Source: Planotetraspora kaengkrachanensis (GTDB lineage Bacteria; Actinomycetota; Actinomycetes; Streptosporangiales; Streptosporangiaceae). Taken from it: a DNA stretch of 64,000 nt. Where the stretch lies: NCBI RefSeq assembly GCF_016862895.1, contig NZ_BONV01000007.1:62001-126000 (forward strand). The letters run 5' to 3'. Below the pieces are notes generated by a model. It worked only from the letters and a program-made list of their open reading frames with translations. It made no database searches and was not told where the DNA came from. This document shows positions 9,648 to 43,082 of the stretch, piece after piece. Numbering within the stretch: position 1 is the stretch's first letter; every line of letters starts with the position of its first letter. Both the position numbers and the translations under genes were made by a program.

Positions 9648-11024
9648 CTAGGACTGCAGGGCGGCTTCTTCGCGTTCCTTGGCCGGCGTGGGGGCGTCGT
9701 CGTCGAGCAGGGTGGTCTCGTCGAACGGATCATGTCCCGCGAGCACCGCCTCGGCCCGCTCCCGGTCGAACTCGCCGGTCCACGTGGCGACGAGGACGGT
9801 GGCGACGGCGTTGCCGGCGAAGTTGGTCAGCGCGCGGGCCTCGGACATGAAGCGGTCGATGCCGACGATGAGGCCGACGCCGTCGACCAGTTCGGGCCGG
9901 TGTGACTGCAGGCCGCTCGCGAGCGTCGCGAGGCCCGCGCCGGTCACGCCGGCGGCTCCCTTAGACGCGATCATCATGAACGCCAGCAGGGCGAACTGCT
10001 CTCCGATGGACAGCGGAGCCCCCGTCGCCCTGGCGACGAACAGCGTGGCCATCGTGAGGTAGATGGCGGTGCCGTCGAGGTTGAACGAGTAGCCGGTCGG
10101 CACGGTGATGCCGGCGACCGGGCGGCTCACGCCGAGGTGCTCCATCTTGGCGATCAGCCGGGGCAGGGCGGACTCGGAGGACGACGTGGACAGGATGAGC
10201 AGGAACTCCCGGCGCAGGTAGTTCAGCAGCGCGAGCATGTTGATCCGCGCGACCGACCACAACATCGGGCCGAGGACGACGAAGACGAACACCAGGCAGG
10301 TCGCGTAGAAGCCGAGCATGATGAGGCCGAGGCTCTTGAGCGCGTCCATGCCCGTCGCGCCGACGACCGCCGCCATCGCGCCGAACGCGCCCACGGGCGC
10401 GGCCCACATGATCATGGCGAGGATGCGGAAGACGAGCCGCTGGATGTGCTCGATCCCGGCCAGGATCGGCGCCGCCTTCGGGCCCATGGCCTGCAGGGCG
10501 AACCCGGCGAGAAGGGCGACGAGCAGCGTCTGCAGGACCTGTCCCTCGGTGAACGCGGACACGAGCGTGGTCGGGATGATGCCGAGCAGGAACTCGGTGG
10601 TGTCGCTCTCCCCACCGGTGGCCGCCTGGGCCTCGGCCGCCTTGCGGAGTTCGTCGGTGAGCTGCAGCCCCTGCCCCGGATCGATGAGGTTGCCGACCAG
10701 CAGTCCGATCGCGAGCGCTACCGTCGACATCACGAGGAAGTAGACGAGCGCGAGCCCGCCGACCTTGCCGACGCTCGCCGCCTTCGCGACCGAGCCCACT
10801 CCCAGCACGATCGTGCAGAAGATGATCGGGCTGATCATCATCTTGATCAGCGCGACGAAGGCGGTGCCCAGCGGCTTGAGCGCCGTGCCGAGGTCAGGCG
10901 CGACGAAGCCGACGGCGATGCCGGCCAGCACCGCCACGATGACGGCGAGATACAAATAACGAGTCCGGTCTGGGCGCTCGGGGGTGGCGGCCTGGGGTTC
11001 AACCGGGGACGCGGACATCGGCAC
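9648..11024 (-). CDS. dctA: C4-dicarboxylate / proton symporter, DctA type
   Basis: A 458-residue membrane carrier of the dicarboxylate/amino acid:cation symporter (DAACS) family. It imports succinate, fumarate or malate with protons. Several membrane segments are visible from residue 24 onward. The family signatures are present: the serine-rich loop STSSSESALPRLI near 285, the NxDGT motif in GYSFNLDGTAIY near 318, and GIDRFMSEARALTNFAGN near 395. The start could be Met1 or Met3. Two-component genes of the citrate/dicarboxylate-sensing type lie on its other side and very likely control it, but a tnpB element now sits in the shared promoter region. A glutamate carrier is the main alternative. 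Confidence 0.88.
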   Translation of the reverse strand: MPMSASPVEPQAATPERPDRTRYLYLAVIVAVLAGIAVGFVAPDLGTALKPLGTAFVALIKMMISPIIFCTIVLGVGSVAKAASVGKVGGLALVYFLVMSTVALAIGLLVGNLIDPGQGLQLTDELRKAAEAQAATGGESDTTEFLLGIIPTTLVSAFTEGQVLQTLLVALLAGFALQAMGPKAAPILAGIEHIQRLVFRILAMIMWAAPVGAFGAMAAVVGATGMDALKSLGLIMLGFYATCLVFVFVVLGPMLWSVARINMLALLNYLRREFLLILSTSSSESALPRLIAKMEHLGVSRPVAGITVPTGYSFNLDGTAIYLTMATLFVARATGAPLSIGEQFALLAFMMIASKGAAGVTGAGLATLASGLQSHRPELVDGVGLIVGIDRFMSEARALTNFAGNAVATVLVATWTGEFDRERAEAVLAGHDPFDETTLLDDDAPTPAKEREEAALQS

Positions 11025-11120
11025 TCACTTTCCTCGGGGGAAGGAACTTCAGCACGATCTAGCCAGGAACCCCGGGCGTTCACACCCGGGAGGAACGGCT
11101 TCCGTCATAAACTTCACAGC

Positions 11121-12242
11121 GTGAAATTCGTTGTGCGGGTACGGCTGTTCCCCACGCCCGCCCAGGAGGCGGCGCTGGCGGACACGCTCCGCCTGTGCAA
11201 CGAGGCGGCAAACCTGGTCTCCCAGGTTGCGTGGGACACCAAGACGTTCCGCAACTACGACCTGCGGCCGCACACCTACGGCGAACTGAAGAACATGGGC
11301 TTGTCGGCGCAGCCGGCCCAGCATGTGATCAAGAAGGTCACTGACGCCTACACGACCGTCACAGCACACGTGAAAGCGAAGCTGCGCAAGCCGCTCACCG
11401 ACCCGATCAAGTTCCGGCCGGACGCGGCGCAGCCGTTCGACGACCGGTGCCTGTCTTGGCAGGTCGACGCGCGCACCGTGAGCATCTGGACCGCCGACGG
11501 CCGGATGAAGGGCGTCGCGTTCGGCTGCTCCGAAGACCAGGCCCGCGCGCTGGCCTCCTACCGCAAAGGCGAGTCTGACCTGGTCCTCCGGGACGGCAAA
11601 TGGCTTCTCATCGCCACCTGCGACGTCCCCGACACTGACGTCACCGAACCCGACACCTTCCTCGGTGTGGACCTCGGGATCGCGAATATCGCCACCACCG
11701 ACGACGGCGAACGGCACTCCGGGAAGCACCTGAACGCGGTCCGCCACCGCAACCGGGAACTGCGCCGCCGCCTCCAGGCCAAGCGAACAAAGTCCGCCAA
11801 GCGGCTGCTGAAGGCCCGGCGTCGCAAGGAGTCCCGGTTCGCCCGGGACGTCAACCATGTCATCTCCAAGAGCATCGTGACCGAGGCTGCACGCACCGGA
11901 CGCGGCATCGCACTCGAAGACCTGAGTGGGATCCGCGAACGGGTACGGCTCCGCAAGCCCCAGCGGGTCACCTTGCACTCGTGGTCCTTCCACCAGCTCG
12001 GCCAGTTCATCGCCTACAAGGCCGGGCGTGCCGGCGTCGCCGTGGTGTACGTCAACCCGGCCTACACCTCGCAGGGGTGCTCGGCGTGTGGGCATATCGA
12101 CAAATGCAACCGGCCCAACCAGGAAACCTTCGCCTGTACGTCGTGCGGCTTCGCTGAGCACGCCGACGTCAACGCAGCCCGCAACATCGCCTTGCGCGGT
12201 GTTGCGGGCTGGGCTGCTGTCAATCAGCCGAACGCGGCCTGA
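11121..12242 (+). CDS. tnpB: TnpB RNA-guided nuclease (IS605 OrfB)
   Basis: A 373-residue TnpB protein, the IS605-associated relative of Cas12. The N-terminal domain begins VKFVVRVRLFPTPAQEAALA. The RuvC-like active site has its three acidic residues in GVDLGIAN (near 178), IALEDLSG (near 258) and HADVNAARN (near 352). A zinc ribbon lies between the last two (CSACG and CTSCG, near 318-340). A basic helical region RRRLQAKRTKSAKRLLKARR lies near 215. The GTG at 11121 is chosen because conservation starts there; the long open frame upstream lies antisense to dctA and is not coding. The protein looks intact and active. Confidence 0.9.
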   Translation: MKFVVRVRLFPTPAQEAALADTLRLCNEAANLVSQVAWDTKTFRNYDLRPHTYGELKNMGLSAQPAQHVIKKVTDAYTTVTAHVKAKLRKPLTDPIKFRPDAAQPFDDRCLSWQVDARTVSIWTADGRMKGVAFGCSEDQARALASYRKGESDLVLRDGKWLLIATCDVPDTDVTEPDTFLGVDLGIANIATTDDGERHSGKHLNAVRHRNRELRRRLQAKRTKSAKRLLKARRRKESRFARDVNHVISKSIVTEAARTGRGIALEDLSGIRERVRLRKPQRVTLHSWSFHQLGQFIAYKAGRAGVAVVYVNPAYTSQGCSACGHIDKCNRPNQETFACTSCGFAEHADVNAARNIALRGVAGWAAVNQPNAA

Positions 12243-14655: not shown

Positions 14656-15453
14656 TCAGGCGCACTGGTCGAGCATCACGTCCTTGTCCGCGGCCGTGAC
14701 CGGCAGGTCGTACTTGATGGCGACCTGGGCGAACCGCACGGCGTAGGAGCACCGAATGCCCTTGGCCGGCGGCAGCCACGAGGCCGGACCCGAATCGCCC
14801 TTGGCGGAGTTGGCCGAGCCGTCGACCGGCAGCAGGTTGAGCGGATCGTTGGCGATGCGCTTGCGTTCCGCGTCGCTCCAGCGGGAGGCGCCCATCTGCC
14901 AGTCGTAGGACAGCGGCATGACGTGGTCGATCTGGACCTCCGACGCGTCCTCCTTGCGGAAGTCGATCGTGTCGCCCGTGTAGGGGTCGTACAACGTCAT
15001 CGAGACGACGACGCAGTCGGAGCCGCTGCGGTACTTGACCTTCTCGCCGTCCCGCTTGAGCAGGTCGTTGCGGGTGTCGCACCCGTTGTGCGCGAGGGGG
15101 ACGTCATCGGCGTTGTCCGCCCACGCGTAGCCGAACTCCTCGCGGTCGTAGCCGGTCTTGGGTCCGCGCCCCTTGGTCTTCACCTGGTCGATCAGGTTCC
15201 TGGCGTCCGTCCGGTCCTTGCCGGAGGTGATCCGGCCCAGACCCGGGTCGGTGCCGTCCGGGTTGTCCAGGGGGTTCGTGCCGTGCGACTTCGCGGTGTC
15301 GTCGCCCTGGCCGCCGCCCTTGTCACCTCCCTGGGAGTCCGAGCGCCCCGGCGGATCCAGGCTGAGCCCCTCCGTGGGCCCGCATCCGGCGAGAACGGCG
15401 ATCGCCACCGACATACCGACGAAGATCCGAGATCCGCGCCCGCCCACAGTCAC
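14656..15453 (-). CDS. Secreted HNH nuclease-like lipoprotein (DUF1524/GmrSD HNH family)
   Basis: About 265 residues from GTG 15453 (GTG 15447 is possible). A signal peptide ends in the lipobox VLAGC, so the mature protein is probably anchored to the outer face of the membrane. A Gly/Asp/Ser-rich linker leads to an HNH fold. The motif is EVQIDHVMPLSYDWQMGA, then NDPLNLLPVDGSANSAKGD and ASWLPP, the pattern of the DUF1524 HNH group. Two cysteine pairs may stabilise it. It probably degrades external DNA for nutrition or defence; this is inference. An AT-rich region with CCTAGGT direct repeats precedes it. Confidence 0.82.
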   Translation of the reverse strand: MTVGGRGSRIFVGMSVAIAVLAGCGPTEGLSLDPPGRSDSQGGDKGGGQGDDTAKSHGTNPLDNPDGTDPGLGRITSGKDRTDARNLIDQVKTKGRGPKTGYDREEFGYAWADNADDVPLAHNGCDTRNDLLKRDGEKVKYRSGSDCVVVSMTLYDPYTGDTIDFRKEDASEVQIDHVMPLSYDWQMGASRWSDAERKRIANDPLNLLPVDGSANSAKGDSGPASWLPPAKGIRCSYAVRFAQVAIKYDLPVTAADKDVMLDQCA

Positions 15454-15454
15454 C

Positions 15455-15482
15455 CCTAGGTCATGAAATTTGCCACCTAGGT
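15455..15482 (-). promoter_or_regulatory. Direct repeats CCTAGGT upstream of the HNH gene
   Basis: CCTAGGT occurs at 15455-15461 and 15476-15482, 21 bp apart (two turns), each followed by an AAAT a few bases on, within an AT-rich stretch running to about 15515. This lies immediately upstream of the GTG start and is a plausible operator or promoter element. Confidence 0.4.
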
Positions 15483-15530
15483 ATAGCAAATGCCCAAGAG
15501 TAGGCAAATAAACGCCCAACTCCCCATGGG

Positions 15531-16056
15531 GTGATCATGCACACATTCGAGGAAACCGCCGCCGACCAGCCCACCCCCTCAGGCGTGATCATGCACGGAT
15601 TCGGCGACACACCGCCCGAGCAGGGCGTACGCATTTTGTGATCAGGCACAGATTCGGCAGGACCTGCCGCGAGCTCAGTTGACGGCGATTGTGATCATGC
15701 AGGGCCCGCGCGGACGACGGACGACGGACGACAGACGACAGACGACAGACGACAGACGACAGACGACAGACGGCCCTACTGCATGATCATGAACCGCGAA
15801 CGGCCAGGCCGCACGCCGCCTCCCCGAATCCGCGCATGATCACGAGCGGTATAACCGCGGGCCGCGGTGCCGATCGCCGAACCTGTGCATGATCACACCC
15901 TGGGTTGGCGCAGGCCGAGGCGCTTCTCCCCGAACCTGTGCATGATCACGCGCGGGAAGCGGTGCAGGCCGCGGTGCCGATCGCCGAACCTGTGCATGAT
16001 CACACCCTGGGTTGGCGCAGGCCGCGGTGCCTATCCCCGAGCCTGCGCATGATCAC
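15531..16056. repeat. Array A: phased, mirror-oriented TGCATGATCAC repeats
   Basis: Ten copies of a motif with consensus CCGAACCTGTGCATGATCAC. Four point left, beginning GTGATCA at 15531, 15585, 15638 and 15691 (steps 54, 53, 53). Six point right, ending TGATCAC/T at 15790, 15843, 15896, 15949, 16003 and 16056 (steps 53, 53, 53, 54, 53). Right-hand spacers are partly conserved, so the unit is 53 bp. A 7-bp microsatellite lies at the centre. The period is not a multiple of three, so it is not coding. The whole 15483-16098 gap holds only this array. It has the same design as the array at 40081. Confidence 0.9.
15712..15772. repeat. 7-bp microsatellite RGACGAC at the centre of array A
   Basis: Eight full units: three GGACGAC followed by five AGACGAC, and a partial ninth. 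It lies exactly where the flanking motifs switch orientation. Such runs vary in copy number by slippage. Confidence 0.9.
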
Positions 16057-16098: not shown

Positions 16099-17043
16099 TC
16101 AGGCGGCGGGGATCCAGTCCTGCCAGACGATCTTGTTCTGCTCGACCCACTTCTGAGCCGCGGCCTGCGCGCTCAGCTTCCCGACGGCCATGTCGTAGGC
16201 CACGGAGTTCTGGTCGTCGTTCGTCCAGACGAAGTTCTTGATCAGTTCGTACGCCTTGCCGCCCTCGGCCGCGAACTTCTTGCTGACGATCTTGTCCAGC
16301 AGGTACGGCGGGTAGTCGCACTTGACCTTGTTGGGGTCGGCGTCGCAGCCGATCGCGTACGGCGGAAGGTTGATCTTCACGAGCTTGAGCTGGTTGAACA
16401 GCCACTGGGGCTCGTAGAAGTACATGAGCAGCGGCGTCTTGTTCTTGGTCGCCTCCTGCGCGGCCTTGATCAGCGCGTCCTCGCTGCCGGCGTAGACCAC
16501 CTTGAACGGGAGGTCGAGGTTCTTGATCAGCGCGGCGTCGTTGGTCACGTAACTCTTGTCGCCCGCGAGGAACTGCCCCATATCGCCCGACGCCGCGGTC
16601 TGGAACAGGGATTTGTAGTCGGCGAGCTTGTGATAGTCCGTGATGTCCGGATACTGCTTCACCATCCACTCGGGGACGTACCACCCGATGACGCCCTTGT
16701 TGCCGTCCTCGCCCGCCGTAAGGGCGACCTTCTTCTCGTCGATGTATTCCTTCTTCAGCTCCGGATGGGCCCAGTTCTCGAGAATGGCGTCGACCTTGCC
16801 GTTCTCGAAGCCCTTCCAGGAATCCGCCTCGACGGCCTCCACGCGCTGGACCTTGTAGCCGAGCTCGTGCACGAGCAGGTACTCGACCACGGCCGCGCTC
16901 GCCTCGTAGCCGATCCAGGGGTTGATGGCCAGGCGAACCGTCCCGGCGCCCCCGCCCGGGCCTCCCGCGTTGTCGGAACTCCCGCTGCACGCGGTCAACG
17001 CCAGCGCGATCGTGAGCACCCCGGCAAGAAGTCGGACCCTCAT
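16099..17043 (-). CDS. Glycine betaine/proline-type ABC binding lipoprotein, second copy (ProX)
   Basis: A 314-residue substrate-binding protein of the OpuAC/ProX family. The lipobox LALTAC follows a short signal peptide. The binding domain opens VRLAINPWIGYEASAAVVEY and contains ENWAHPELKKEY, GWYVPEWMVKQYPDITDYH and LLMYFYEPQWLFNQLKLVKI, where the Trp and Tyr residues would box the quaternary ammonium. The ATG at 17043 gives the signal peptide; upstream codons are not conserved. It is highly similar along its length to the neighbour at 17175-18155 and so arose by duplication. A terminator hairpin separates the two, so this copy probably has its own promoter. Confidence 0.85.
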   Translation of the reverse strand: MRVRLLAGVLTIALALTACSGSSDNAGGPGGGAGTVRLAINPWIGYEASAAVVEYLLVHELGYKVQRVEAVEADSWKGFENGKVDAILENWAHPELKKEYIDEKKVALTAGEDGNKGVIGWYVPEWMVKQYPDITDYHKLADYKSLFQTAASGDMGQFLAGDKSYVTNDAALIKNLDLPFKVVYAGSEDALIKAAQEATKNKTPLLMYFYEPQWLFNQLKLVKINLPPYAIGCDADPNKVKCDYPPYLLDKIVSKKFAAEGGKAYELIKNFVWTNDDQNSVAYDMAVGKLSAQAAAQKWVEQNKIVWQDWIPAA

Positions 17044-17132
17044 ATTGACCTCATCAGAAGTAGGACGGGCGGCGAACGCGGACGACGAAACCGCGGGCGA
17101 CACCGGCAGAGTATTTCACAACCGAAAGCGGC

Positions 17133-39333: not shown

Positions 39334-40053
39334 TCACGACGGCGTTGGCTCGAAGGTCCACCTGGCGACGAAGTAGCCGACGCCGTACGGGGCGTCGTCG
39401 TAGAGCGAACCGCTGGCGCACCTGCCGGCCGCTTCGGCCGCGGCGGCCGCCAGAACCTGGAACGCCACCCTGCCCCCGACCCACAGTTCGTCGGCCTCCG
39501 CCGGGTCCAGGCCGGCGAGCAGGCCGGCCTCCCCCGCCGCGATCGCCCTGCCGATCATGTCGTTGTACGGCACGGCACCAGGATGCAGATAGCCGGGGGA
39601 CTTCTCGGTGAGCCTGGCGGAGCCGTCCCCCATGGCCAGGATCGCGACCCGGCCGGCGGACCGGGCGATCTCCTCTCCGAGCGCGGCGCAGCCGGCGGGA
39701 GCAGCGTCCGCCGCGACGGCCTCCAGGCGCAGCGCGGGCAGTGCATCGGGGTCCGGGGCGTATCGGTCGAGCAGCCATCGGCCGACGGTCAGCGAGAGCG
39801 GGAGGACGGGCTCGCCTCGACCGGCGCGTACGTCGGCCCCCCAGGGCCTCATGGTCCCCGCCGCGTCGCCCGGGTAGTCGGCGGACCGCTCGGCGGGCCC
39901 CACGACCACGAGCAGATCGGGATCGCACTCGACGAGGGAGCGAATCACTTCCGCACAAGCGGCACGGAGATCGTCGAGCTCGGACGCCGCGGCCCCGGCA
40001 AGCTCCGGCACGATCAGCGGAGGATGCGGGCAGACACCCGCTGCGACCAGCAC
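39334..40053 (-). CDS. Class III extradiol dioxygenase subunit B-like protein
   Basis: A 239-residue protein of the LigB-like fold. The opening VAAGVCPHPPLIVPELAG supplies the conserved His pair, followed by DPDLLVVVGPAE near 45 and the AGRVAILAMGDGSARL core near 133. In actinobacteria this gene normally lies between miaB and miaA-dapF and is of unknown role. That agrees with miaB nearby at 41571, while miaA is now 12 kb away. The ATG at 40053 is at the edge of repeat array B. Confidence 0.82.
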   Translation of the reverse strand: MLVAAGVCPHPPLIVPELAGAAASELDDLRAACAEVIRSLVECDPDLLVVVGPAERSADYPGDAAGTMRPWGADVRAGRGEPVLPLSLTVGRWLLDRYAPDPDALPALRLEAVAADAAPAGCAALGEEIARSAGRVAILAMGDGSARLTEKSPGYLHPGAVPYNDMIGRAIAAGEAGLLAGLDPAEADELWVGGRVAFQVLAAAAAEAAGRCASGSLYDDAPYGVGYFVARWTFEPTPS

Positions 40054-40080: not shown

Positions 40081-40628
40081 GTGATCACGCACAAGCCCGG
40101 GGGTGATCACACACGAACCTGGAGGTGATCATGCACAGGCTCGTAGACCCCCTGGGGTGATCATGCACAGGCTCGTAGAACCCCTGGGGTGATCATGCAC
40201 AGGCTCGGGCAAGCAGCCGCCGACCTGCGCATCCACCGCGCGTGATCATGCACGAGTTCGTCCATCGCCGCATCCACCTGTGACGACACCATGCGTGATC
40301 ATGCGCAGGTTCGACCACAGGGTGGACCACCTGCGGTTTCGCCGCCCGTGATCATGCACGCGCATGATCACGGGCGCCATACGCGCACGTCGGCGGGCAT
40401 GTGCGCGAATCCGTGCATGATCACGAACGTTGTACCCGCAGGCGAGCGGGCGTTTCCCCGAATTCGTGCATGATCACGAACGTTGTGCGCGCAGGCGAGC
40501 GGGTAGTGCTCCGAATTCGTGCATGATCACGCGCAGGGGTTGGTGGAGGCCACGGGGGCTGCCGGCGAACCTGTGCATGATCACCACAAGGCTTGTGCGT
40601 GATCACCACGAGGCTTGTGCATGATCAC
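40081..40628. repeat. Array B: phased, mirror-oriented TGCATGATCAC repeats
   Basis: Fifteen copies of the same motif as array A. Eight point left, beginning GTGATCA at 40081, 40103, 40125, 40157, 40189, 40242, 40295 and 40348 (steps 22, 22, 32, 32, 53, 53, 53). Seven point right, ending ATCAC at 40371, 40424, 40477, 40530, 40584, 40606 and 40628 (steps 53, 53, 53, 54, 22, 22). The orientation flips at 40348-40371, which is itself a near-perfect 24-bp palindrome. It fills the divergent region between the dioxygenase-like gene and the proline-rich gene. No cas genes are present. Confidence 0.92.
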
Positions 40629-40746
40629 CACAAGGCTGCGGTGAGGGTGGTCGGTGTTGGAAATTCGGGGGCGCGGGTGGAGATGGACCAGCAGACTGGA
40701 GGAGATAACGAAACAGTCGCGAAATCATAACGGAAGAATTACGACA

Positions 40747-41574
40747 TTGTCGAACTTTTCTCCCCCGCCTCATCCCGGGCCTCCCCAACGAGCTCGTACA
40801 GCTCTCGCCCTGGCGGGTGTCATAACGATCATCGGCCTCGCCGGCCTCGGCATCGTTCTTGCCCTGTCGTCGAACGCCGGGGTCGTCCGCGGATCGACGA
40901 CGCCGTCGGCCGCACCCGCGTCCTTCGTCGTCCAGGCGCCGACCACGCCACCGGAGACCCCGGCGACCCGGGAGACCCCGGAGTACCCGGAGGTGCCGTG
41001 GGCGCCCGGCGTGATCGCCGGGATGGCTCCCGGCGCACAGGACATCGGCGAAGCGCCGCCCGGCGCGGCCTCCCCCGCACACCCCTCGAAGCAGCGGGAC
41101 GACCTTGGAAAGCAGCCGCGACAGCGGGGCTCCGGCCATCCAGGGCACGCCGACCGGACACCCGTCGCGGTGGTTCCCCCGCACACGCCCGGCGAGAGGC
41201 CCGCCCGGCCGGCTCCCGCGGCCCCGGCCGCGCCCGGCGCTGGAGCGCCTCCAGGAGTGGCCCGGGGAGTGGCCCAGGCGCCACCCGCCGCGAGATCGTC
41301 AGCACCCCAGCCCGGGCCGAATGCCGAAGCGCCTCAGCCCCGGCCGAGCTCGGCCCCATCCGGACCCGCTTCCGCCGCGCGTCAGCCGAAAGCACCCCAA
41401 CCCGCAGGACCTCAGCCCGGAGCACCACAGCCCGGTGCACCTCAACCCGGTGCACCTCAACCCGGAGCGCCTCGGCTCGGTCCCGGCCGGCTTCCCGACC
41501 CCTGCGCGACCTACCGCGACGTCCGCCGCGACTACTGCTACCAGGTCGTCGCCGAACTGACGACCGGCCGTTAG
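40747..41574 (+). CDS. Proline-rich single-pass membrane protein, unknown
   Basis: About 275 residues from a TTG at 40747; the true start is uncertain and no in-frame ATG precedes the membrane segment. A short basic N-terminus leads to one membrane helix ([20 protein letters not shown]) and a long Pro/Ala-rich extracellular stretch. A conserved-looking C-terminal patch follows ([20 protein letters not shown]) with two Cys. The stalk includes four PQPGA repeats. The stop overlaps the miaB stop tail to tail (41571-41574). I do not recognise a named family; the cell-surface role is inference. Confidence 0.65.
41410..41469 (+). repeat. Four 15-bp tandem repeats encoding PQPGA
   Basis: Units start at 41410, 41425, 41440 and 41455 and code for Pro-Gln-Pro-Gly-Ala in the stalk of the membrane protein. 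A degenerate fifth follows. They are in frame and differ mainly at synonymous positions. Confidence 0.9.
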
Positions 41575-43082
41575 TTCCCCAGCGGCGACAGGACGGAGCA
41601 TCCGTCCGACGCCTCGGGAGAGGCGGCGGGACGCCCGATGGTGGGCATGCCCAGGCTCACCGCGTTGCCCGTCGCGGGCCGTCCCTGCCGCGCCTCCCAG
41701 GCGTCGCCCGCACGGGTACGGCGCACGCCGAGGACCTTGTCGGCCACGAGGTGGTGGGGCGCGGCGTAGGTGACCTCGACCGTCACCATGTCGCCGGGAC
41801 GCGCGTCGACGGGGGCCAGGTGCACGAGGCGGCTGTCGGCGGCGCGGCCGGACAGGCGGCGGGTCGCGTCGTCCTTCCGGCCCTCGCCCTCGGCGACGAG
41901 CACCTCGAGCGTGCGGCCGGTCTGCTTCTTGTTCTCCTCCCAGGAGATCTCCTCCTGGAGGGCGACGAGACGCTCGTACCGCTCCTGGACGACCTCCTTG
42001 GGCACCTGGCCGTCCATGGTGGCCGCGGGGGTGCCGGGGCGGATGGAGTACTGGAACGTGAACGCGTTGGCGAACCGCGACTGCCGCACGACGTCGAGCG
42101 TCTGCTGGAAGTCCTCCTCGGTCTCACCGGGGAAGCCGACGATGATGTCGGTGGAGATGGCCGCGTCCGGCATCGCGGCGCGGACCCGCTCGATGATCCC
42201 GAGGTAGCGGTCCGAGCGGTACGACCGGCGCATGGCCTTCAGCACCCGGTCGGAGCCCGACTGGAGCGGCATGTGGAGCTGGTGCATGACGTTCGGCGTC
42301 TCGGCCATGGCCGCGATCACGTCGTCGGTGAACGCCGCCGGGTGCGGCGAGGTGAAGCGGACCCGCTCCAGTCCGTCGACGTCCCCGCACGCCCGCAGCA
42401 GCTTCCCGAACGCCAGCCGGTCGCCGAACTCGACGCCGTAGGTGTTGACGTTCTGCCCGAGCAGGGTGACCTCGAGGACGCCCTGGTCGACCAGCGTGCG
42501 GATCTCGCCCAGCACGTCGCCGGGACGGCGGTCCTTCTCCTTGCCCCGCAGCGACGGCACGATGCAGAAGGTGCAGGTGTTGTTGCAGCCGACCGAGATC
42601 GCCACCCAGGCGGCGTAGGCCGACTCCCGCTTGGTCGGCAACGTGGAGGGGAAGGTCTCCAGGGATTCCTTGATCTCGACCTGGGCCTCTTCGGCGATGC
42701 GGGCCCGCTCAAGCAGCACGGGCAGCGAGCCGATGTTGTGCGTGCCGAAGACCACGTCGACCCAGGGCGCCCTGCGGACGATCTCGCCCTGGTCCTTCTG
42801 CGCGAGGCATCCGCCGACCGCGATCTGCATGCCCTCACGGGCCATCTTGACCGGCCTCAGGTGACCGAGGTTCCCGTACAGCCTGTTGTCGGCGTTCTCA
42901 CGCACGGCGCAGGTGTTGAACACGACCACGTCCGCCGTCTCGCCGTCGGGGGCGCGGACGTATCCGGCGTCCTCCAGCAGCCCGGACAGTCGCTCGGAGT
43001 CGTGCACGTTCATCTGGCAGCCGTAGGTGCGCACCTCGTAGGTCCGGGTCGCGCCCTCGGGGCCCTGAGTGGTCACAGTCAT
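41571..43082 (-). CDS. miaB: tRNA-2-methylthio-N6-dimethylallyladenosine synthase
   Basis: Radical-SAM enzyme that adds the methylthio group to i6A37 in tRNA, the step after MiaA. The 503 residues are typical. The N-terminal domain has three Cys for the auxiliary cluster ([34 protein letters not shown]). The radical-SAM motif [11 protein letters not shown] is near 165, and a C-terminal TRAM domain starts near 390. The ATG at 43082 fits the conserved start. The last ~20 residues ([17 protein letters not shown]) are extra. The 290 bp upstream to gluA holds both divergent promoters. Confidence 0.95.

Follow-up and report, generated by a model that had tools for sequence, protein, structure and literature searches.

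The window, the whole 64,000-nucleotide stretch that was analyzed, is part of contig C7 of the 8.77-Mb Planotetraspora kaengkrachanensis genome, and it carries two arrays of a short repeated word, which we call A and B. The features at and around them are as follows.

14656–15519, minus strand: gene left of array A, encoding a GmrSD_C/HNH_4 protein (Pfam)
15531–15703, minus strand: left arm of array A, 4 sites, steps of 54, 53 and 53 bp
15831–16056, plus strand: right arm of array A, 5 sites, steps of 53, 53, 54 and 53 bp
16099–17103, minus strand: gene right of array A, encoding a glycine-betaine-type substrate-binding protein (OpuAC), its 3′ end toward the array
39334–40053, minus strand: gene left of array B, 239 aa, its 5′ end toward the array, no Pfam match
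40081–40360, minus strand: left arm of array B, 8 sites, GTGATCA outward, steps of 22, 22, 32, 32, 53, 53 and 53 bp
40081–40201, minus strand: outer-edge extension of that arm in 22/32-bp steps, absent from the four orthologous arrays seen
40343–40376, no strand: central palindrome of array B, where the arms meet (from the sequence and inverted repeat I2)
40359–40628, plus strand: right arm of array B, 7 sites, steps of 53, 53, 53, 54, 22 and 22 bp
40572–40628, plus strand: outer-edge extension of that arm, three near-identical 22-bp copies (repeat family D5)
40654–41574, plus strand: open frame right of array B, 306 aa as listed, proline-rich, no Pfam match
41571–43082, minus strand: miaB-like gene with UPF0004 and Radical_SAM (Pfam)

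An earlier sequence-only reading had described array B (40081–40628) as fifteen TGATCA sites that change orientation at a central palindrome. All fifteen are present, eight reading GTGATCA on the plus strand at the left and seven reading TGATCAC at the right, with the steps that had been claimed; across the center, the step from TGATCA to TGATCA is 16. The center is a 24-bp palindrome (40348–40371) with one mismatched pair, which, judged by eye on the sequence, extends to 34 bp (40343–40376). The gap between the arms is 2 bp here and 78 bp in array A, where the center is filled by a short tandem repeat of GACGACA type (about 15716–15772). As the same reading had said, no open reading frame explains array B, which overlaps none of the genes called by a codon-usage caller. 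The frame on its right (40654–41574) has an uncertain start and is missing from those calls. On the left side, array B faces the 5′ end of the 239-aa gene (39334–40053), which we take to resemble a class III extradiol dioxygenase. Elsewhere in the window, the frame at 10137–12242 ends in a TnpB/IS605 OrfB-like zinc-ribbon region, as judged by eye.

The 13-mer TGTGCATGATCAC, allowing up to two mismatches, has 26 matches in the window where 0.88 would be expected, a count that was reached in 0/100 dinucleotide shuffles; 14 of the matches lie in array B, 9 in array A (15531–16056) and 3 elsewhere. Across the genome, GTGATCATGCAC with at most one mismatch was found 997 times (486 + 511), compared with 7 (2 + 5) for the reversed control, and the listed sites fall on at least four contigs. 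Their density is uneven among the exact sites listed, with 3 on C2 (395 kb) and 73 on C1 (606 kb). At 5.5 sites per array, 997 sites give a rough figure of about 180 chromosomal arrays, and array B is one instance among many, not a single oddity. The DNA examined in detail comprised about 1.0 Mb of this genome, including the window, 80 of 88 stretches from named relatives, and loci from further relatives.

These numbers bear on two functions that had been suggested for array B. Repeated sites are typical of plasmid centromeres, and the arrays could in principle be centromere-like partition sites for a ParB-type protein. However, about 1,000 sites are spread over at least four contigs instead of forming one cluster, and the core presumably differs from the actinobacterial parS consensus, making partition highly improbable. 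With so many sites in the genome, both a single partition locus and a looping regulator dedicated to one gene are unlikely.

Spacing was assessed with 690 same-strand steps drawn from Planotetraspora and A-T 1434 loci. The peak at 53 bp that the sequence-only reading anticipated is there, with exactly 53 bp in 609/690 steps and 52–54 bp in 650/690, and the spacing is thus not random. Steps of 15–45 bp occur without exception in an arm's outer half (18/18, counting an exactly middle pair as outer), and the 22- and 32-bp steps are edge additions; in Planotetraspora mira, the orthologue of array B has one 21-bp step at its right edge. The claim that all sites share one helical face held in part, as the steps other than 53 bp are modestly phased (n = 27; at a period of 10.6 bp, chosen from six, Rayleigh R = 0.45 and p about 0.004). 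Mirror orientation was borne out: opposite-strand pairs within 170 bp face outward in 112 cases vs 0 (13-mer with at most one mismatch, fetched loci). With a shorter core, a site is out of order in 2/176 arrays, so the mirror rule is not absolute; arrays of mixed orientation (2/176 at one mismatch, 4/177 at a looser setting) were excluded from distance and hairpin counts. The gap between the arms is exactly 13 bp at 19/88 mirror centers, which makes this a preferred value, and other center gaps show no helical phasing. We classified 161 arrays as full (82), left single arm (39) or right single arm (40), and in one array classification 3/112 fell into the class 'other'.

The consensus of 420 units is CGAACCTGTGCATGATCACG followed 13 bp on by CAGGTC (C 96%, G 95%), so that the 53-bp unit can be written as CGAACCTGTGCATGATCACG-N13-CAGGTCRG-N12, which is asymmetric. 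Conservation between orthologous pairs falls at phases −8 to −5, 1 to 11 and 24 to 30, giving three patches per unit about 12, 21 and 20 bp apart. For 10 orthologous pairs with flanks at least 93% alike, the mismatch was 2.8% in the core, 10.1% in the second block, 18.3% in the linkers and 4.4% in the flanks, and for 28 pairs at least 84% alike it was 4.6, 17.7, 31.8 and 8.1%, respectively; because query sites were picked by core likeness, the core figures may be biased slightly downward. The pattern is that of purifying selection acting on the DNA, with the core and second block kept and the linkers not. Site and spacing are conserved and the spacer is free, as in an array of protein sites. 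Gaps strike core and linker equally in the closest pairs (16% and 14%), a pattern that gain and loss of entire units would produce.

Linkers also record how units spread. Compared across arrays of this genome (169 units, 31 arrays), their best matches average 0.610, vs 0.586 after column shuffling, and none of the 169 units reaches a linker identity of at least 0.8 with a unit in a different array, so recent copying between loci is not seen. Within single arrays, a few units are copies of one another, in some cases inverted and in opposite arms, a pattern suggesting that local copying lengthens the arms. Examples of inverted near-copies in opposite arms are C1 28667/28924 (96% linker identity) and C1 100257/100570 (80%) of this genome, hinting at template switching.

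Placement relative to genes was examined using calls from the codon-usage caller, in which stops are reliable and starts less so. The arrays are intergenic, as predicted, and in this genome occur at 13/158 convergent and 2/157 divergent junctions (Fisher p = 0.006), with 10/290 and 5/242 for co-directional ones. Considering all loci, 160/241 outer arm ends face the 3′ end of a gene, although the 241 include orthologous arrays and hence are not independent. For 116/160 of these 3′-facing ends, the distance to the stop codon is between −10 and +40 bp, and in 31/160 the outermost site supplies the stop codon with its TGA. The remaining 81/241 point toward a gene 5′ end, and 65/81 of these halt 26–170 bp before the called start; called starts being uncertain, this may leave room for a promoter.

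Outer ends that adjoin stop codons, with the first site's TGA serving as stop in the cases just given, could mark bidirectional terminators or 3′-UTR RNA elements, with arms right behind the stops and full arrays that fold if transcribed. In keeping with this, strong hairpins in the 80 nt past the outer ends are rarer (3–10%) than behind array-free genes of the same genome (19% of 488), and array B folds as RNA at −341 kcal/mol, vs −244 for shuffled sequence (z = −13). The long hairpin of full arrays, however, follows from the mirror layout, and it is impossible in the 79/161 classified arrays that have a single arm. The complementary blocks within units show no covariation in four groups (z −1.4 to 1.2). 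At inner edges, hairpins are slightly in excess for right single arms and not for left ones. Among convergent junctions, the 51 that have arrays are no poorer in hairpins than the 177 that have none (45% vs 35%), but they are longer. The one third of outer ends that point toward gene 5′ ends also speaks against termination. Over the 161 arrays, some centers look terminator-like without a general excess. A reading as unit hairpins or structured RNA fails, as there is neither covariation nor, anywhere in the 64-kb window, an Rfam match at gathering thresholds. Overall, we consider an RNA-level role quite unlikely.

Placement also weighs on the sequence-only suggestion of a looping regulator, extended here to operators of a large regulon in which each array loops DNA to control its neighbors. 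Multi-site phased operators can loop DNA. Yet arrays are rare between divergent genes (2/157 junctions), and individual loci acquire or lose them from one sister species to another, so we regard regulon operators as very unlikely.

Array B is not confined to one species. Using the miaB-like gene (41571–43082) as anchor, we found it at the same place in 4/5 relatives, contrary to the absence from close relatives that would have spoken against an assembly site: the number of sites is 10 in P. mira, 9 in P. silvatica, 8 in G077 and 2 in P. phitsanulokensis, which has the left arm alone, and no array was found at this place in Planotetraspora sp. A-T 1434. Across all loci, sites occur at the orthologous place in 77/85 directed genome comparisons (89 rows minus 4 self-comparisons of one genome), a partner orthologue being present in the fetched DNA for 61/160 arrays with both flanks. 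The orthologous place is array-free in 8/85, and the six of these that were aligned, one alignment being uninformative, gave no clean junction or duplication. Individual arrays vary, shifting in unit number or losing one arm, and at C1:394013 of this genome the sister species (L075) has the opposite arm. At three loci, arrays lie between the same two flanking genes across genera; by eye, the flanks are DUF349-like and relA-spoT-like genes, ATPase and MurT-like genes, and deaminase and 2Fe-2S genes. By the same inspection, no DNA-binding candidate flanks these three loci, and a binder encoded beside a shared array was therefore rejected.

The wider distribution is patchy. In named relatives, the exact 53-bp pair pattern belonged to Planotetraspora in 80/80 of the stretches listed (80 of 88). 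The bipartite 53-bp signature (one mismatch) has 8 to 592 copies in 13/338 Streptosporangiaceae genomes from 4/68 genera (g1 5/5, g59 1/1, g65 5/15 and g34 2/2), and 16 other genomes of the family have 1 or 2 copies. The exact signature occurs in 2/394 genomes of the class, both Streptosporangiaceae, and in 0/353 genomes outside that family. Ten of the 15 g65 genomes have no match to the bipartite signature, and at an array of G168 (g65) the other 14 show one or both flanks with no piece of the array between them, among the matches listed. Array-free g65 genomes indicate that the system is dispensable.

We read the low-copy matches as relics in G096 and G118, a real array in G051 and chance in the other 13. 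G118 (L207, about 10033) and G096 (L208, about 10164) each have a lone two-site array between, by eye, HAD-like and metH-like genes, in a genus with hardly any other matches, and it is probably a relic. The G051:C73 array (L210, about 10047–10150) lies in frame inside a gene that by eye is acyl-CoA synthetase (ADP-forming)-like, apparently in the linker between two domains. Isolated GTGATCATGCAC pairs (g50 and others) were set aside for their different layout. In other genera (genomes G025, G089, G090 and G050), the same core word forms pairs in opposite orientation, often 28–31 or 56–61 bp apart, and pairs of this different layout may represent a second dispersed family. They lie as follows.

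L168 6299–6728, L171 199–794, also L165–L167, L169, L170 and L172–L176: core pairs of the other layout

Sequence around the core differs by lineage. The core flank is GAACCTG in P. kaengkrachanensis, P. silvatica, P. mira and P. phitsanulokensis, GAACTTC in G077 and P. thailandica, CGACAAAC in g65 and GCGAG(AAAC/TTTC/AATTC) in g34. In the G077 copy of array B, 6/8 sites carry the G077 dialect, and the two innermost carry neither.

Patchy presence among genomes is one of several features that would suit vertically inherited, REPIN-like intergenic repeats, selfish or domesticated and occasionally copied in trans, with the mirror arms as element ends. A module recurs at the outer ends of the g65 elements, an array sits in frame inside a gene (G051), and the intergenic, convergent-biased placement resembles that of REPs (PMC3733652). 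Against this reading, the core is kept far beyond the linkers inside orthologous arrays, cross-locus copies are missing (0/169 units, as above), and the 6/8 array-free sites that were aligned, including the uninformative one, lack a clean junction or duplication. Moreover, Y1_Tnp (PF01797, the RAYT domain) is absent from this genome (G000), from G022, G104 and G125 (3/4 other Planotetraspora) and from G059. Taken over array-bearing and array-free genomes, Y1_Tnp was found in 6/14 and 6/10, respectively; within g65, its matches number 0 to 10 per genome with no evident tie to arrays. The REP/RAYT version fails, as the genome has no RAYT and whole-unit copying between loci is not seen, and we consider REPIN-like repeats in general unlikely.

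Mirror ends and 22-bp outer steps would also recall Tn7- or Mu-like transposons, whose transposase binds repeats of about 22 bp at mirror-image ends, the arrays being such ends or relics. This genome has no Mu-transpos_C (PF09299), 3/24 genomes have one, all Planotetraspora, and the arrays remain at fixed loci; with the transposase absent here, the reading fails and its probability is negligible. A phage or plasmid element was likewise rejected: array B had no blastn match in plasmid and phage collections, and viral contigs held 0 exact 53-bp pairs. When tested, the terminator, RNA-element, RAYT, Tn7-like and mobile-element readings were all weaker than that of a protein array.

Several known systems resemble the arrays in part. 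REPIN biology includes lineage-specific sequences, which the arrays share. REP units are numerous and intergenic, often lie close together in opposite orientation and occupy mostly convergent or co-directional junctions (PMC3733652). REP, BIME and REPIN elements thus share many intergenic copies and close opposite-orientation units with the arrays, but here there is no RAYT, phasing is strictly 53 bp, each arm has several sites, and linkers are free and unshared between loci. The BOX and MIRU-type repeats are intergenic units of about 50 bp in variable number, with copies alike along their whole length; unit size and setting are similar, whereas here it is mainly words and step that are conserved. 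Tandem multi-turn units are found in sopC of the F plasmid, whose 43-bp units each hold a protein site, but sopC is one locus per replicon made of direct repeats, and the arrays are many, dispersed and mirrored. In the MatP/matS, SlmA and Noc systems, a single architectural protein reads words scattered over the chromosome; those sites are isolated and short, whereas ours form arms of phased units. DNA uptake sequences are known for their copy numbers and their co-evolution with the receptor, and are single words rather than phased mirror arrays. In Neisseriaceae, they are many short words with lineage dialects and a cognate receptor (PMC3630211, PMC3868556). Many words per genome and lineage dialects are what they have in common with the arrays. 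REP/REPIN elements and uptake-sequence dialects are the nearest known systems, each alike in part and without phased mirror arms. Searches of the open PubMed Central subset gave no description of the arrays or of a dedicated binder for them. We rate the arrays as categorically new as a genomic element, with the caution that their putative binder could turn out to belong to a protein family already known.

We lean, with modest confidence, toward the arrays being DNA binding sites for one putative sequence-specific protein, whose role at gene 3′ ends is probably that of an architectural or insulating factor. The nucleoprotein assembly site that had been proposed for array B is the best supported interpretation. 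In its favor are the strict 53-bp phasing, the mirrored arms, the location shared with relatives, and selection that acts on the core and second block but spares the linkers; protein binding itself would follow from these by inference. The putative protein would read the asymmetric unit through patches on one face of the helix; with three patches per unit and units five turns apart, successive units would present the same face. Since the unit is asymmetric, neighboring protomers would be arranged head to tail within an arm, in five-turn steps and presumably cooperatively, and the mirror layout suggests that two arms would meet face to face and join in a symmetric complex. The position of the arrays behind genes hints that they fence off or organize chromosome segments, and the dialects would reflect co-evolution with the putative binder. 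Taken further, the arrays may be mirror-symmetric, helix-phased tracks on which a protein polymerizes from both sides to a central dyad, building boundary or anchoring complexes behind genes with a site alphabet that co-evolves across genera, and so a new class of chromosome element; we put this fuller picture forward tentatively, as a serious possibility that falls short of being probable.

That one chromosome keeps a word about 1,000 times, with five-turn spacing and mirrored arms, implies that a DNA-binding protein is devoted to it. The split within g65, with five genomes that have arrays and ten that do not, means that this binder can be sought by gene-content comparison, and loci shared by lineages of different dialect serve as a natural experiment in which a protein and hundreds of its sites would be changing together.
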